64,000 nt of DNA from positions 1 through 64,000 of the forward strand of contig JABDGE010000011.1 of the NCBI GenBank assembly GCA_013286235.1, given 5' to 3'. A program made the translations under genes and the position numbers. How positions within the stretch are numbered: position 1 is the stretch's first letter; every line of letters begins with the position of its first letter. This DNA comes from Bacteroidota bacterium. Lineage in GTDB: Bacteria; Bacteroidota; Bacteroidia; Sphingobacteriales; Sphingobacteriaceae. The notes beneath the pieces were generated by a model. The model searched no databases and was not told the DNA's origin. It saw only the letters and a program-made list of their open reading frames with translations. Below, one piece after another: positions 14,864 to 35,723 of the stretch.

Positions 14864-15229
14864 ATGAAACGTTTAAGCGAAAAAGAAGAAGTCATTATTA
14901 AGGCTGTTTGGAAACTGAAAAAAGCATTTGTGAAGGACGTGCGGGAAGAATTGCCCGACCCGAAACCTCATATCAATACCGTGGCTACCATGATGCGGAG
15001 AATGGCCGATAAAGGTTTTTTGAAGTACGAGGATTTCGGCGCTACCTACCGTTACTCGGCCTCGGTATCAAAAAAGGAATATACCAACACCTTCGTTAAG
15101 CCATTGCTTACCGGTTTGTTTGGTAACTCGATGAAGAACGTGGTTAGCTTTTTTACCGAGGAAGAAGAAATTTCGGTTGATGAACTCAAAGAGATCATCG
15201 AGATGATCGAGAACAAGAACAAACAATAA
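14864..15229 (+). CDS. BlaI/MecI/CopY-family transcriptional repressor (module 1)
   Basis: 121 aa winged-helix repressor: LSEKEEVIIKAVWKLKKAFV, recognition helix region HINTVATMMRRMADKGFL, wing YRYSASVSKKEY, and a C-terminal dimerisation helix. Family members are inactivated by proteolysis when the partner M56 membrane protease senses a signal. The partner gene starts 11 bases downstream, and a consensus operator lies just upstream. The native signal is unknown; beta-lactam sensing should not be assumed, because the partner lacks the penicillin-binding domain. Confidence 0.92.
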   Translation: MKRLSEKEEVIIKAVWKLKKAFVKDVREELPDPKPHINTVATMMRRMADKGFLKYEDFGATYRYSASVSKKEYTNTFVKPLLTGLFGNSMKNVVSFFTEEEEISVDELKEIIEMIENKNKQ

Positions 15230-15240
15230 ATTCTTCGGAT

Positions 15241-16752
15241 ATGGAAACTTTGATGGCGTACCTGGTAAAGGTTAATGTGATCTTCACCATTCTTTTTTTG
15301 GCTTATGTTGTTTTGTTTAAGAACGAGAAAGCGTTTTACCTGAACAGGGCATTCCTGTTGAGCACTTTACTGCTTTCAAGCCTCCTGCCGTTTGTGCCCG
15401 CCATCCATTCCGGTTCAGGCGGAACATTCCCGAACTATGTGACCGGAATAAACCCGCTAAAAAATGTTTTGCCAGCCGGGCCGAGCCTTCAAAACGTGCC
15501 GCAGCCCGTTGCCCGGGCTGCCTCGCATGGATCTTTTGCCGGGATTTTTGGGCATATCACGCTTATCCAGGTTTTCATGGGGATTTATTTGCTGGTGGTC
15601 CTGGTGTTGTTAAATAAATTCATTTACCAGTTGCTGAACCTGTATTTCCTGTTCAAACGAAGCAAAAACTACAAAGGCGACGCGGTAGTGTATTGTGAGC
15701 ATAACCAGGATCTTTTGCCGTTTTCTTTCTTTAATGTCCTTTTTATCAATCCAGGAAGCAATTATCACCAGTTGGAGGAAATCATTGAACACGAAAAGGT
15801 GCACATCCGGCAGTGGCATTCCATAGATATATTATTAGCTGAAGTGTTCAGCATTGTTGCATGGATAAACCCGCTCACCATTTTTTTGAAGCGATACAAC
15901 CGGCTCAACCTTGAATATATCGCCGACCAGGAAGTGTTAAACACCGGGATCGATAAGAAGCAGTACCAGTTAAGTATCCTGCAGAATTCGCTGAGCCCCA
16001 ATGCCTACCCGCTCACTAATTTATTCAGCTCGTCAAAAATTAAACTTCGCATAAAAATGATCAACCAAAGTAAACCAACCGGGAAGCTATACAAATACCT
16101 GTTTGTGCTTCCGCTGGTGTTAATCAGCTATCTGCTCGTTAACCCTGTAATTGCCAACTCGGCAGGTATTAAAATTTCGAAGGCAGACGAAATGCCTTTG
16201 ACTGCTTTTGAAGGCGTTTATCAAAACCGGGATGCCCGGACGGCCTATTATAAAGTATCCGTGGTAAACAATGCGCTGGTAGCCAGCAGGCTTGATTTTA
16301 AGCAGCAATATGTATTAAACCGTGCCTCCGGGCTGACTTTTGAAACCACGGACCCGGCGACCGGCAAAAAGGTCATCCTAACTTTTTCAAAAAACGATGC
16401 AGGCACGATAAGCCAGCTGCGTGTTGATGACCATAGCCCGTGGATAAAAGTAAATGCGTATAAGCTAACCGACCAGATAAGAATGCCGCCCGGAATGATG
16501 AAGAAATTTGAAGGAGAATACCAGCTTGAGGCAAAACCCGGAACGTTTTTAACGATAACGTCAAACGGAACCGGACTGATCCTTAAGCAGAAATGGGACG
16601 GAAAAGAGATTGGCCCCTTCGCCCCGACCTCCCTTCTTGACTTTTTACAGATGGACGATGCGATGCCTTTGCGGTTTGTTAGGGACAATAATCGCAATAT
16701 TGTAAAAATGTATGCCAGTGGTGGGGACGTATGGGATAAGGTGAAAGAATAG
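15241..16752 (+). CDS. M56-family (BlaR1-like) membrane metallopeptidase, module 1
   Basis: 503 aa. The N-terminal about 290 residues hold four membrane segments and the M56 zinc protease domain, with HEKVH (184-188) as the HExxH motif and NLEYIADQEVL as the downstream Glu motif. After the last membrane helix (about 283-305) comes a periplasmic C-terminal region of about 200 aa that lacks BlaR1's penicillin-binding motifs. It resembles two repeated beta-rich segments (FEGVYQNRDARTAYYKVS and FEGEYQLEAKPGTFLTIT). Co-transcribed with its BlaI partner. Confidence 0.9.
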   Translation: METLMAYLVKVNVIFTILFLAYVVLFKNEKAFYLNRAFLLSTLLLSSLLPFVPAIHSGSGGTFPNYVTGINPLKNVLPAGPSLQNVPQPVARAASHGSFAGIFGHITLIQVFMGIYLLVVLVLLNKFIYQLLNLYFLFKRSKNYKGDAVVYCEHNQDLLPFSFFNVLFINPGSNYHQLEEIIEHEKVHIRQWHSIDILLAEVFSIVAWINPLTIFLKRYNRLNLEYIADQEVLNTGIDKKQYQLSILQNSLSPNAYPLTNLFSSSKIKLRIKMINQSKPTGKLYKYLFVLPLVLISYLLVNPVIANSAGIKISKADEMPLTAFEGVYQNRDARTAYYKVSVVNNALVASRLDFKQQYVLNRASGLTFETTDPATGKKVILTFSKNDAGTISQLRVDDHSPWIKVNAYKLTDQIRMPPGMMKKFEGEYQLEAKPGTFLTITSNGTGLILKQKWDGKEIGPFAPTSLLDFLQMDDAMPLRFVRDNNRNIVKMYASGGDVWDKVKE

Positions 16753-31577: not shown

Positions 31578-31680
31578 TAGATTTTATTTTTAGGAATTTT
31601 TATTGTGCTGTATATCAGTGCAATAAAAATTATTTTGCGTAAACTTAGAACTTCTTCTTGCAACGTACGTTTTTAATACA

Positions 31681-31688
31681 TACCTTTG
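31681..31688 (+). promoter_or_regulatory. -7 box TACCTTTG of blaI module 2
   Basis: Perfect TAnnTTTG match. It places the transcription start near 31695, so the ATG at 31693 cannot be used with a leader; the ATG at 31711, which has an aaagga site, is the likely start. A loose inverted pair (aatacata ... tatgttatt) surrounds the box and could be a weak operator. Confidence 0.6.
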
Positions 31689-31710
31689 ATCTATGTTATT
31701 TACAAAGGAT

Positions 31711-32085
31711 ATGGACAGCGAAATGATACCGACAAAAACCGAGATGGATGTACTGATGATCCTATGGAAATTCGGGCCATCCACCGTGCGTTTTGTACAC
31801 GATAAACTGAATGAACAGAAGGAAGCAGTGATCTATACTTCCACGCTGAAGTTGATGCAGGTGATGAAGGAAAAGGGGATGCTTGACCGGGATGAAACAA
31901 ATATGAAGCATATTTACAGGCCGATACTTGAGGAACGTACCGTGAAAGGGAGTATGCTCGACCGCTTTATGGATAATATGTACGACGGTTCGCCGAGCGA
32001 CCTGATATTGTCCCTGCTGGGGAACAAAAAAACCTCGGCGGATGAATTGCAGAAGATAAAGGATCTGTTGAATAACATGGAATAA
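31711..32085 (+). CDS. BlaI/MecI/CopY-family repressor (module 2)
   Basis: 124 aa from the ATG at 31711 (ribosome site aaagga); the open frame from 31693 is ruled out by promoter position. Winged helix: PTKTEMDVLMILWKFGPSTV, recognition helix TSTLKLMQVMKEKGMLDRDE, wing HIYRPILEERTV, C-terminal dimerisation helix. A distant paralogue of module 1. The M56 partner gene begins 15 bases downstream. Confidence 0.92.
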   Translation: MDSEMIPTKTEMDVLMILWKFGPSTVRFVHDKLNEQKEAVIYTSTLKLMQVMKEKGMLDRDETNMKHIYRPILEERTVKGSMLDRFMDNMYDGSPSDLILSLLGNKKTSADELQKIKDLLNNME

Positions 32086-32100
32086 ATAAAACAACCCGCC

Positions 32101-33828
32101 ATGCAATTGTCACTTACCCACACACAACATTTTATACAGGCTTTCAGCTGGATGCTGCTTCATTCGCTTTGGCAAGGGTTAATAGCGGCAGCGCTGACGG
32201 GTGCACTGTTTGCAATATTCCGTCGCTCTTCGGCGATCCTTAAATATAACCTGGCGTTGGTTCAGTTTTTATTGTTTGTTGCGGGTTGTGCTTATACGTT
32301 TATATGGGAATGGAAAAGCGCCCCGGAAACAGTCCTTGTCCGGCCAGTTGTAAGGGCCATCCATGCCGGCGTTTCTATCCCCCTGGACTTGAATATACAT
32401 GGCCTGGAGCAGTTTGCCAGGATATGCCTGGGTTACTTTTCGGCCAATGCGCCTTTGGTGGTGCTGTTATGGCTGATCTTTTTTGTATTTCGGTCGTTCC
32501 GGATGATCGGCGGGCTGATGTACACCCACCGGGCAAAAAGGCGGCATCTTTTTCAGCCTGCCGGCGAATGGAGCGATAAACTGGATAAACTCAGTAAAAA
32601 GTTACAGTTAAAAAAGGTTGTCCGCTTGCTGGAATCGGGATTCGTGAAAATACCAATGGTGGTCGGTAATTTGAAACCAGTTATACTTATGCCCGTGGGA
32701 CTTATGGCCGGGTTGCCTGCCGGCCAGGTTGAGGCCATATTGCTTCATGAGCTTGCCCATATCCGCCGGAACGATTATTTTGTGAATTTGCTTCAAACCG
32801 CTGTCGAAACTGTATTTTTCTTTAACCCCGGATTGTTGTGGATTTCGGCCCTAATCCGCGAGGAGCGCGAAAATTGCTGCGATGATGCCGCTCTCGCTCA
32901 AACAAAAAACAAAAAGGAGTTTGTACAGGCGCTTATCAGCTTTAAAGAGCATGCCATGTATGCCAACAATTATAAAGTGGCTTTTCCGGGAAAGAAAAAC
33001 CACCTGCTCAACCGGGTTAAGCGTATCATAGGGGGCGAATACAATACTTTTGGGGCCGCCGAAAAAGCCGCACTGATGGCCTGTTTTTTTGTTTTGTTTG
33101 CGATAGCAGCGACGGCAACTATCACACGGAGCGGGGTAATGCACAACAGCCATTCGAAGTTCGCCACAAAGATGGTTTATCATGCGCCCAATAAAATCAC
33201 AACCCTGGTGAAACAAGCCGGCGCTTCGCCGTCAGCCATCACCAAAAGGAAAAAAGCGCGGTTTTATCGTACCGGGAACCCTGTTTTGAGAAAGCCGGAA
33301 ATAAGGCCGGTATTGGACGGGGTAAAAGATGAAGTTACCATGGTACACGGCAATGATGTGCAAACAGCGAGTGTAACCGTTGAGTCCGCAAAAGTGCTGC
33401 ATGTTAGCCAGGAGGAGCAAGCCCGGCGTGATCAACAACAAGCCATTGTGGACCAGGAGCAGGCTGCAAACGACCAGGTACAGGCAAAAAGGGACCAGGC
33501 CCAGGCTTTGCTTGACCAGGCTCAAGCCAAAAAAGACCAGGCGGCAGCACAACGGGACCAGGAGCAGGCGCGATCAAACCAGGAACAGGCGAGGAAAAAC
33601 GAGGAGCAATCAGAACGCAACGCTATTCAGATCCAGGAAAACAATGTCCAGGATATAAAAAACCGGGAGCAGGCGGAACGAAACCGGAAACAGCAAGCTT
33701 TGAATGAAGTACAGGCGAAAAAAAACCAGGAGCAGGCGAAAATGAACCAAATACAAGCGAAGAAAAACCTGCAGCAGGATACAATAAACCGAAGGCAAGG
33801 CGTTGGCAGCCACGCAAGCGTGCAATAA
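32101..33828 (+). CDS. M56-family (BlaR1-like) sensor protease with heptad-repeat tail
   Basis: 575 aa. Membrane part and M56 protease domain (residues 1-340): HELAH at 216-220 with the downstream EERENCCDDAAL Glu motif. A final membrane helix lies around 325-345, then a periplasmic linker. From about residue 436 to 568 there are about 18 consecutive seven-residue units of the form QxQAxx[D/N]. The first seven or so end in Asp and the rest mostly in Asn. There is no penicillin-binding domain. Two secreted proteins with matching heptads follow downstream. The tail probably senses or binds these proteins; that is inference. Confidence 0.88.
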   Translation: MQLSLTHTQHFIQAFSWMLLHSLWQGLIAAALTGALFAIFRRSSAILKYNLALVQFLLFVAGCAYTFIWEWKSAPETVLVRPVVRAIHAGVSIPLDLNIHGLEQFARICLGYFSANAPLVVLLWLIFFVFRSFRMIGGLMYTHRAKRRHLFQPAGEWSDKLDKLSKKLQLKKVVRLLESGFVKIPMVVGNLKPVILMPVGLMAGLPAGQVEAILLHELAHIRRNDYFVNLLQTAVETVFFFNPGLLWISALIREERENCCDDAALAQTKNKKEFVQALISFKEHAMYANNYKVAFPGKKNHLLNRVKRIIGGEYNTFGAAEKAALMACFFVLFAIAATATITRSGVMHNSHSKFATKMVYHAPNKITTLVKQAGASPSAITKRKKARFYRTGNPVLRKPEIRPVLDGVKDEVTMVHGNDVQTASVTVESAKVLHVSQEEQARRDQQQAIVDQEQAANDQVQAKRDQAQALLDQAQAKKDQAAAQRDQEQARSNQEQARKNEEQSERNAIQIQENNVQDIKNREQAERNRKQQALNEVQAKKNQEQAKMNQIQAKKNLQQDTINRRQGVGSHASVQ

Positions 33829-33961
33829 TTAAACCGGGCCATAACTACGCTGATCACCGTAGCTTATAGCCGTCGAAATAAATCTGAAATTTTAATTTTT
33901 TTAAAATCCGCGAAATCGTGGGGTGGTAATCTGTTGTCTAAATTTTTTAACTAAATAATCA

Positions 33962-34795
33962 ATGAAAACGAAAAAAAACAACATTATCCGGGCGGTATGC
34001 CTGGTAATAACGCTATCGGCTGCAATCACTGCCGGTGCACAAACAAAAAGCGCCGGACAAACGGCAGATAATGATGGCGTAAGAAATAGCTTCGACCAGA
34101 GCCGGGTTGAAAATGGCAAGCGCATTGAAAAGGTGCAAATATATCTGCATGACCAGCAGTACAAAGTTGAATTAGTAGATGATAAAATGACGAAGCTGTA
34201 TATCGACGGGAAGGAAATCCCGGCTGCGGATTGGAGCAAATACAGCGACGCAATAGGGGCGATCCGCGAACAAATCAAGGAGAACAGGTTACAGGCTGTG
34301 CGCAACGAGGAGCAGGCAAAACGCAATCAACTGCAGGCGCAAAAAAATGAAGAGCAGGCGGTACGCAACCAGGAGCAGCAGGTTAGGAACCAGGAACAGG
34401 CTGAGAAAAACCAGGCGCAGGAAAAACGCAACGCGATACAGGCTCAAAAAAATGAAGAACAGGCCGTACGCAACCAGGAGCAGCAGGTGAGGAACCAGGC
34501 ACAGGCTGAAAAAAACAAAGAGCAAGCCGTCCGGAATGAACTGCAGGCAAAAAAGAACCAGGAGCAGGCCGAAGCCAACGAGCGTTTTATTAAATCAATT
34601 ACAGCGGACTTAGTGGCCGACAAGATCATTAAAGATGAAAATAGTTTGGAGGATTTAACCATCAACGCCAATGAAATGATTGTAAATGGCGTAAAGCAGC
34701 CGGAAGAGACGCATAAAAAGTACATAGAAAAGTACAACCGTTTTTCGGACAGCAGCTTTTCGTTTTCAAATCATGGGGTAGTGAACGGTAATTAG
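33962..34795 (+). CDS. Secreted heptad-repeat protein, Asn type
   Basis: 277 aa. Signal peptide (about 1-27, ending TAGAQ). An N-terminal domain (about 30-100) contains QYKVELVDDKMTKLYIDGKE and IPAADWSKYSDAIGAIREQI. Fourteen Q-x-Q-A-x-x-N heptads follow (about 106-205), then a C-terminal domain with ITADLVADKIIKDENSLEDL and NANEMIVNGVKQPE. The heptads contain an internal 35-residue (105-base) duplication. It is a paralogue of the next gene and the same length. Function unknown; its neighbour upstream is the M56 sensor with the same heptads. Confidence 0.8.
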   Translation: MKTKKNNIIRAVCLVITLSAAITAGAQTKSAGQTADNDGVRNSFDQSRVENGKRIEKVQIYLHDQQYKVELVDDKMTKLYIDGKEIPAADWSKYSDAIGAIREQIKENRLQAVRNEEQAKRNQLQAQKNEEQAVRNQEQQVRNQEQAEKNQAQEKRNAIQAQKNEEQAVRNQEQQVRNQAQAEKNKEQAVRNELQAKKNQEQAEANERFIKSITADLVADKIIKDENSLEDLTINANEMIVNGVKQPEETHKKYIEKYNRFSDSSFSFSNHGVVNGN

Positions 34796-34889
34796 CAATA
34801 AATAAATAACAAACAGGGATAAAAACAAATAGGAATAAATAAGAAGTGGCGAACGAAAAGACGCCGCTAACAAAAATAAAGCAACGAAA

Positions 34890-35723
34890 ATGAAAACAAA
34901 TTATAGGAAAGTCAGCATAGCGCTGGTAATAGCATTGCTGACCGCTTTTGCGGTAAAGGCACAACAGATCAGTGTACAGGATAAGTCGGCAGGAGACGCC
35001 GGCCGGTACGAAAACTACGATGTAACGAGTAACCGGGATGGCAAACAGGTGGAAAAGCTGCAAACCAACTGGAACAATAAGCAATACAAGATGGAATTGG
35101 TGAATGATAAGATGACCGCGCTGTATGTAGAGGGCGAAAAGATCCCGGCGGCTGACTGGGGGAAATATAGCAAAGTGATAGCGGAAATAAGGGAACAAAT
35201 AAGAAAAGACAAGATACAGGCAAAGCTTGACCAGGCCCAGGCTAAACGCGACCAGCAGCAGGCAGTGAAAGACGAGGAGCAGGCTAAGCGCGACCAGGAG
35301 CAAGCGTTGCGCGACCAGGCTGAAGCAAAGGTAGCGCAGGAACAAGCCGTGAACGACCAGATACAGGCCAAGCGCGACCAGGAACAGGCTGTCCGCGACC
35401 AGGAGCAGGCAAAAAAGGACCAGGAACAGGCAAGGCTTGACCAGATTCAAGCCAAAAAAGACCAGGAACAGGCTGCCGAAGACCAGCATTTAATGAAACA
35501 AATGATCGCAGACCTGATAGCTGATAAAATTGTTCCCGATGAAGAAAGCCTTAAGGAGGTGACTTTAAATGCTGATGAAATGACCGTGAATGGGGTAAAA
35601 CAACCGGACGCCGTTTATCAGAAATATAAAACCAAGTACAACCGTTTTGCTTTGGGCGATTTCTCCTATGGTAATGAACAAAGCAATTACCGGGGCATTC
35701 ACATGAGCAGGCAGGAGCGTTGA
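34890..35723 (+). CDS. Secreted heptad-repeat protein, Asp type
   Basis: 277 aa, same layout as the preceding gene. Signal peptide about 1-23 (ending AVKAQ). N-terminal domain has [20 protein letters not shown] and [20 protein letters not shown]; then about 13 Q-x-Q-A-x-x-D heptads (about 108-198); C-terminal domain has [20 protein letters not shown] and [14 protein letters not shown]. The end domains match the first paralogue closely, but heptads use Asp where the other uses Asn. The gap to the first paralogue is 94 bases, so they may share one transcript with it. Confidence 0.8.

Follow-up and report, generated by a model that had tools for sequence, protein, structure and literature searches.

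What does a BlaR1-type membrane protease sense when it carries no penicillin-binding domain, and why would it share an uncommon heptad repeat with proteins encoded beside it? The question is raised by four + strand genes across positions 31693-35723 of a 64,000-nucleotide stretch of DNA from a Bacteroidota bacterium of the Sphingobacteriaceae (contig JABDGE010000011.1, positions 1 to 64,000; hereafter the window). They encode a BlaI-type repressor, an M56 metalloprotease sensor and two predicted exported proteins, here termed SEC1 and SEC2. With a probability of roughly 70%, we read the locus as a split BlaR1-type receptor, in which secreted sensor parts would dock on the membrane protein through matched polar coiled coils. 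The sequences themselves contain the operon, a heptad code matched between the partners, relatives with the sensor and SEC-type domains fused in one chain and a conserved promoter, and they strongly imply that the sensor tail binds the SEC proteins.

An earlier note on this DNA had given the exact coordinates of the sensor and the two secreted-protein genes. Its description of the repeat stood, and its heptad numbers, about 18 in the tail and 14 and 13 in the secreted proteins, were right to within one of our counts (19, about 15 and about 14). The account was incomplete, as it overlooked the blaI gene of the unit, the block structure of the tail and the likeness of the secreted proteins to an ectodomain.

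31658..31688, + strand: putative operon promoter/operator consisting of TTG, the palindrome AACGTACGTT (31662-31671) and TACCTTTG; conserved, function presumed from conservation
31693..32085, + strand: BlaI-type repressor gene (Pfam Penicillinase_R, 6.4e-23)
32101..33828, + strand: M56 BlaR1-type membrane metalloprotease sensor with heptad tail (Pfam Peptidase_M56; predicted structure matching BlaR1)
32437..33021, + strand: M56 protease domain with HELAH motif, aa 113-307 (sequence, Pfam, alignment)
33178..33399, + strand: flexible linker of the sensor tail, aa 360-433 (AlphaFold pLDDT <50)
33430..33576, + strand: tail D-block of heptads starting with Asp, aa 444-492 (heptad calls; part of the predicted helix)
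33577..33807, + strand: tail N-block of heptads starting with Asn, aa 493-569 (heptad calls, predicted helix)
33962..34795, + strand: SEC1, N-type, with signal-peptide-like N terminus, N-domain, coil and C-domain (sequence)
34283..34597, + strand: N-type heptad coil of SEC1, aa 108-212 (heptad calls)
34890..35723, + strand: SEC2, D-type predicted secreted protein (sequence)
35016..35129, + strand: N-terminal beta domain of SEC2, aa 43-80 (AlphaFold model; a related domain is fused to M56 elsewhere)
35148..35522, + strand: single continuous helix of SEC2, aa 87-211 (AlphaFold, pLDDT block means 90-98), with D-type heptads at aa 107-204
35523..35675, + strand: small C-terminal domain of SEC2 with VNGxKQP motif, about aa 212-262 (sequence; same domain in M56 chains)

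The operon and its proteins

The sensor belongs to the M56 family (Pfam Peptidase_M56, 1.4e-28, 100.3 bits against a cut-off of 31), with a sub-cutoff match to Peptidase_M48. The residues H216, E217, H220 and E255/E257 were invariant among 30 aligned sequences and provide the HExxH motif with a downstream Glu. The predicted model matched Staphylococcus aureus BlaR1 best (Foldseek, 8exs, E 1.8e-6, TM-score 0.33 by query length) and, together with the hydrophobic segments, indicates a membrane-embedded BlaR1-like fold. Pfam gave no penicillin-binding domain and no class-D-like sensor domain at the C terminus, as the earlier note had held for beta-lactam binding; NCBIfam blaR1_generic scored 88.3 bits against a cut-off of 400.

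In place of such a domain, the predicted model shows a low-confidence, presumably disordered linker (aa 360-433) and a single helix (aa 434-568). The tail carries 19 heptads (aa 437-569) of the register [D/N]-Q-x-Q-A-x-x, whose first letters read QDDDDDDDNNNNNNNNNNN, that is Q-DDDDDDD-NNNNNNNNNNN, in which a D-type block precedes one of N-type. SEC1 contains about 15 heptads, all of them N-type, and SEC2 about 14 of D-type with one A. Residue identity at a lag of seven amounted to 58/138 in the sensor, 48/113 in SEC1 and 51/113 in SEC2, compared to means of 15.7, 14.1 and 14.1 and maxima of 30, 31 and 26 in 2000 composition shuffles.

The secreted proteins resembled no known fold in a Foldseek search at E<=0.001, and the number of relatives with solved structures found by sequence at E<=0.01 was zero. 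Pfam returned only sub-cutoff matches for SEC1 (Macoilin, TFIIA) and none for SEC2. DNAJB6b was rejected as a fold relative, its best VIA-align Z of 6.5 (58 residues, rmsd 5.3) lying below the level which the tool's note trusts; BamC and the beta-lactamase-inhibitor-like 3d4e were weak matches in a structure list and were not used. The N- and C-domains of SEC may be related to each other: HHalign gave a probability of 82% locally over 28 columns and 17% in global mode.

The Penicillinase_R-type gene lies beside the M56 gene, and its translation may in fact begin at an in-frame ATG downstream of 31693. Of the 35 same-genus loci, 34 had a BlaI-like gene along with the sensor; in the remaining one, L082, the stretch begins within the sensor gene. 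Upstream of blaI, TTGCAACGTACGTTTTTAATACATACCTTTG was nearly invariant across these loci, while ACGTACGT was present in 18 of 23 split loci of a Chitinophagaceae set as well as in L110 and L111; in the remaining five, the chosen start codon may have misplaced the inspected stretch. The element TACCTTTG fits TAnnTTTG, which we take to be the Bacteroidota -7 element. Allowing up to three mismatches, the promoter core pattern occurred exactly once in each of eight of 12 genomes and was absent from four. Seven of the eight matches were located at the operon, and the only site elsewhere, with three mismatches, was found in G012, a genome without the operon. One of the four genomes without a match, G082, has the operon with a diverged promoter. 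Autoregulation of the operon by BlaI is likely.

The assembly which holds the window (G000) is 65% complete in 218 contigs. Other M56 proteins were noticed in passing. At 14864-16752 the window encodes a second BlaI-type repressor, accompanied by an M56-type membrane protein of 503 aa that has an HEKVH motif but no heptads. Elsewhere in the same genome, two tandem M56 proteins of 778 and 820 aa (L088, contig C52) have tails with several NGK/NGxKQ modules. In G424, a long tandem array of FNSPEWKKQ units makes up the tail of an M56 protein (L185, contig C6), a repeat of a different kind.

The heptad code in relatives

The system is carried by many named Mucilaginibacter species. Among 149 genomes of the same genus, 50 matched SEC2 at E<=1e-3, some only via the C-domain of other M56 proteins. 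Stretches were taken from 37 of the 50 and combined with the window's own, which yielded 35 heptad-tailed sensors in 35 genomes (window included). When the 149 genomes were searched with the tail, 34 matched; among the matches listed, all were placed in this operon, within its sensor or SEC genes, and no third heptad protein appeared at E<=1e-3. Such a search can overlook R-dialect tails, e.g. that of L080. The wider spread was sparse, with matches in 4/395 genomes of the class and 2/395 of the phylum (own genome counted in each), and a search for plasmid copies gave no match.

The earlier note had named heptad-tailed M56 proteins without matching secreted neighbours in most genomes as evidence against its proposal, and the search gave no refutation, as 33 of the 35 same-genus sensors shared their stretch with a SEC gene, whole or broken. 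The two others were L054 (G025), where the gene is interrupted, and L084 (G067), where the sensor lies at a contig end. The SEC gene of G025 breaks off after about 34 codons (L054, contig C28), where foreign genes that look like a restriction/DNA-modification island interrupt it, and the remainder lies near the end of another contig (L053, C39). In L061 (G071) and L074 (G130), stops or a frameshift disrupt the N-type SEC gene, with the N-block of the sensor intact, either through recent decay or through an assembly error. In L109 (G424, contig C5), blaI is followed directly by a D-type SEC gene with no M56 gene in between, leaving an orphan secreted protein.

The type of the tail corresponded to the types of the SEC genes. 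Relatives with D-type SEC alone possessed a D-type tail (three tails with one stray N, and L057 with a short N stretch), those with N-type and D-type SEC genes had a tail with D followed by N, and L081, the sole locus with a single N-type SEC, had an N-only tail. With heptad callers biased towards D or N at position 1, the presence of an N-block agreed with that of an N-type gene in 36 of 37 rows, and the D-block with a D-type gene likewise in 36/37 (other genera included). The exceptions were L057, whose N stretch looks decayed and which has no N-type gene, and L110, in which the caller overlooked the heptads of one partner; by eye, both of its proteins bear DRx[RQ]A repeats. The D-block preceded the N-block in all 11 mixed tails, L057 included, a list obtained with the D/N-favouring caller. 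At position 2, R or Q was common to both partners, the majority type agreeing in 34/34 cases, and the R fraction of the sensor D-block correlated with that of the D-type SEC at 0.98 (38 loci).

The code extends beyond these letters. A profile search of the family containing Chitinophaga (394 genomes) matched 26 genomes, three seeds among them, and the 20 stretches examined comprised 17 complete blaI-M56-SEC sets, two with SEC only and one with nothing recognised; L232, one of the complete sets, matches L140. Further position-1 dialects were common to both partners, namely Q in L244, H/Q in L240, A/Q/M in L248 and a D/H/Y mixture in L246.

Correspondence between partners was also assessed by independent contrasts on a tree built from the M56 domain without the tail, with 51 loci after removal of one duplicate; a first tree, for which an overly strict motif filter kept 17 rows, was superseded by later ones. 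Six of the 35 same-genus sensors (L054, L061, L073, L076, L082, L084) are missing from this test, having no SEC in the stretch, being cut or not passing the motif filter, as are L110 and L111, in which too few heptads were called, and L232, whose M56 row is the same as that of L140. The contrasts, like the codon-diagonal, own-pair and leave-one-out tests below, used a caller based on positions 4 and 5 only. At position 1, sensor and SEC composition correlated with r=0.88 for N, 0.89 for H, 0.70 for D, 0.78 for Q and 0.54 for A. The values at position 2 were 0.91 for R, 0.74 for Q, 0.66 for M, 0.65 for A, 0.36 for K and 0.21 for E, and those at position 7 were 0.50 for R, 0.42 for K, 0.25 for L and about 0 for A and E. 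The P-values of these contrasts call for caution, some states being rare. When single loci were left out, the minima were 0.86 (N), 0.77 (H), 0.67 (D) and 0.40 (Q) at position 1, and 0.89 (R) and 0.67 (Q) at position 2.

Own pairs were more alike than pairings with related loci in 332 of 452 comparisons at position 1, 317 at position 2, 341 at position 6, 286 at position 3 and 259 at position 7. The excess of own over far pairs was highest at positions 2, 6 and 1 and lowest at positions 5, 4, 7 and 3. In the models both partners form long helices and in the contrasts their positions covary, as would be seen in a coiled-coil pair.

Fused relatives and the proposed mechanism

The C-domain of SEC is found again in the tails of further M56 proteins encoded by the same genome. 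Among 45 named loci (L134-L178) of 62 gathered, 36 contained only a fused chain of M56 and SEC-type domains (Dyadobacter, Hymenobacter, Ferruginibacter, Pedobacter, other Mucilaginibacter and more), eight only the split form (Mucilaginibacter, Chitinophaga, a Chitinophagaceae metagenome-assembled genome (MAG) and a Bacteroidetes MAG), and L162 both; in many fused chains, the C-domain alone was recognised. L112 has M56, the N-domain and DSEQA heptads in one chain, up to the point where its contig ends, and L114 is a further fusion example. Since SEC-type domains occur only fused to M56 in 36/45 loci, SEC looks like a detached BlaR1-type ectodomain. The fused Bacteroidota sensors resemble the window in having a SEC-type N- and/or C-domain on an M56 protein, a coil in those inspected and mostly a BlaI gene alongside. 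In contrast to the window, they consist of a single chain with no separate secreted protein.

The binding of tail and secreted proteins which the earlier note had suggested is strongly backed by comparative evidence (matched blocks, corrected covariation, fused relatives and heptads found only in the operon); that the sensor monitors these proteins, we infer. In the mechanism suggested here, the M56 protease in the inner membrane would extend a flexible linker and a long helix into the periplasm. Exported SEC, as a detached ectodomain of the sensor with two small domains capping a long helix, would dock on this helix via the matched polar coiled coils. By helical-wheel reasoning, positions 4, 1, 5 and 2 would lie on one face, with a core made up of Ala and a polar residue that varies (Asp, Asn, Gln or His), flanked by Gln and by an adjoining Gln/Arg that would add specificity. 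The tail in the window would offer its D stretch to SEC2 and its N stretch to SEC1; with two docking stretches, one sensor could read two secreted partners. A changed occupancy or posture of docked SEC would be relayed to the protease and, by analogy with BlaR1, BlaI would be cleaved and the operon derepressed, yielding more sensor and SEC in a feedback loop. As to the sign and nature of the signal, our guess is that an envelope target draws SEC off the sensor and thereby switches the protease on.

We put at even odds the further proposal that several secreted ligands are read by a single protease by means of a coiled-coil barcode of single letters that evolves, Asp, Asn, Gln or His standing at one heptad position and Gln or Arg at the following one. 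The D- and N-blocks would then be orthogonal docking addresses on one tail, gained and lost with their partners.

Several observations weigh against the docking mechanism. An Asp-containing polar core is unusual in coiled coils. Covariation was not confined to the proposed contact face, since position 6 (E, r=0.74) and position 3 (E 0.55, L 0.56) also covaried, at position 6 perhaps via salt bridges with R at position 2. The position-1 Q signal came mostly from one locus, r falling from 0.78 to 0.40 without L244. Independent-pair tests on a smaller tree yielded 3 and 4 pairs, concordant on average in 2.9/3 and 4.0/4, which is too few for p<0.05. The order of heptads was mostly non-collinear between partners (4/46 pairs at p<0.05, Fisher p 0.038), and as collinearity is not general, no polarity of pairing is claimed. 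L057 retains N heptads without an N-type gene, the three D-type tails mentioned above have their stray N heptad, and L111 fits poorly, with a short tail and degenerate SEC heptads. In G424, from another genus, blaI and SEC are adjacent and the three other sensor matches are without a heptad tail.

In the systems CpxP-CpxA and RseB-RseA, a periplasmic protein adjusts a membrane-spanning signalling protein. The working principle would be alike, with docking in the window proposed to occur via matched helix repeats. A CpxP-like product titration constitutes a more specific form of the split-receptor reading, in which excess SEC, an envelope-binding effector, would repress its own sensor and docking would be a feedback arm with no other ligand. 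We consider this possible though on balance doubtful. In most of 44 loci no operon gene was recognised besides blaI, sensor and SEC, where only these families and a serine hydrolase were sought, and the operator-like promoter was a single match in its genomes and located at the operon in seven of eight, the eighth being without the system; both observations would suit titration. Eight of the 44 loci, on the other hand, encode a beta-lactamase-family serine hydrolase of secreted type between the sensor gene and the last SEC gene (L052, L062, L064, L065, L066, L070, L074 and L111), so that SEC is not always the sole output. Two further loci have such a gene at the edge or before blaI, and the three hydrolases checked by Pfam were all PF00144 with sub-cutoff TPR matches.

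It is unlikely that tail and SEC instead bind a common third partner, such as an envelope polymer, an ion or a protein, and both follow its changes, with SEC as a soluble decoy or scaffold. Matched heptads would result in this case too, and both helices are long, polar and charged. Against this stand the two types that coexist in a single genome, their corresponding blocks being found on a single tail, and the fused relatives, which indicate a direct relation of sensor and ectodomain. The tail search also listed no third heptad protein, though such a partner need not bear heptads.

The likeness of tail and SEC was also followed in the DNA. Own SEC was the best DNA match of the tail in 7/32 D and 3/10 N comparisons and not the best in 25/32 and 7/10; it exceeded the median of other SECs in most comparisons, and in the N-only locus L081 the own pair scored below all nine others. 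Over 59 sensor-SEC pairs, the identical-codon rate was 0.507 on the best diagonal and 0.491 on other diagonals (difference 0.017, standard error 0.009), and the best diagonal exceeded every other one in 1/59 pairs. Gene conversion, examined as the sole cause, was rejected as the main one on the DNA ranking and the synonymous sites. With own SEC rarely the best DNA match and codon identity near background, the likeness seems to be maintained mainly at the protein level. That it arose by descent and DNA exchange only (duplication, recombination between repeats), without functional pairing, is the least probable explanation: an uncommon repeat in adjacent genes, own pairs that are sometimes the best and mostly above the median, and the Q and R heptads of L056, which run in the same order in both proteins, would agree with it, whereas the DNA ranks (L081 included), the near-background synonymous sites and the far stronger covariation of positions 1 and 2 than of position 7 do not.

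Known systems and significance

The proposed split receptor shares with BlaR1/BlaI and MecR1/MecI (PMC9834060, PMC7593790) a blaI-type gene beside an HExxH M56 membrane metalloprotease, and its model resembles BlaR1 of S. aureus, where the M56 protease cleaves BlaI (PMC9834060). Unlike those sensors, as far as these accounts describe them, the window sensor has no penicillin-binding domain on its own chain and instead a separate secreted ectodomain and a heptad tail. The Mycobacterium tuberculosis homologue of BlaR1 is described as an M56 protease without an equivalent penicillin-binding sensor domain (PMC9834060); by description, this lack is common to both, and neither a heptad tail nor secreted partners are mentioned there for the homologue.

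In the literature on BlaR1/M56/BlaI sensors and Bacteroidota heptad repeats, no description of a split M56 sensor with secreted heptad proteins was found among the matches listed, nor was one of the fused Bacteroidota sensors found in the BlaR1/M56 literature. M56 sensors of BlaR1 type with ectodomains other than a penicillin-binding domain occur in many Bacteroidota, and no account of what they sense was found in the literature on BlaR1/M56 sensors. A separate soluble ectodomain makes the input of such a sensor directly testable, as it can be purified and labelled and then serve as bait for its target. Through its covariation, the code supplies natural, apparently orthogonal pairs of polar coiled coils, which are of interest for pairing specificity and for design. 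If the barcode proposal is true, these Bacteroidota would possess a natural set of mutually orthogonal polar-core coiled coils together with a split class of M56 receptors.

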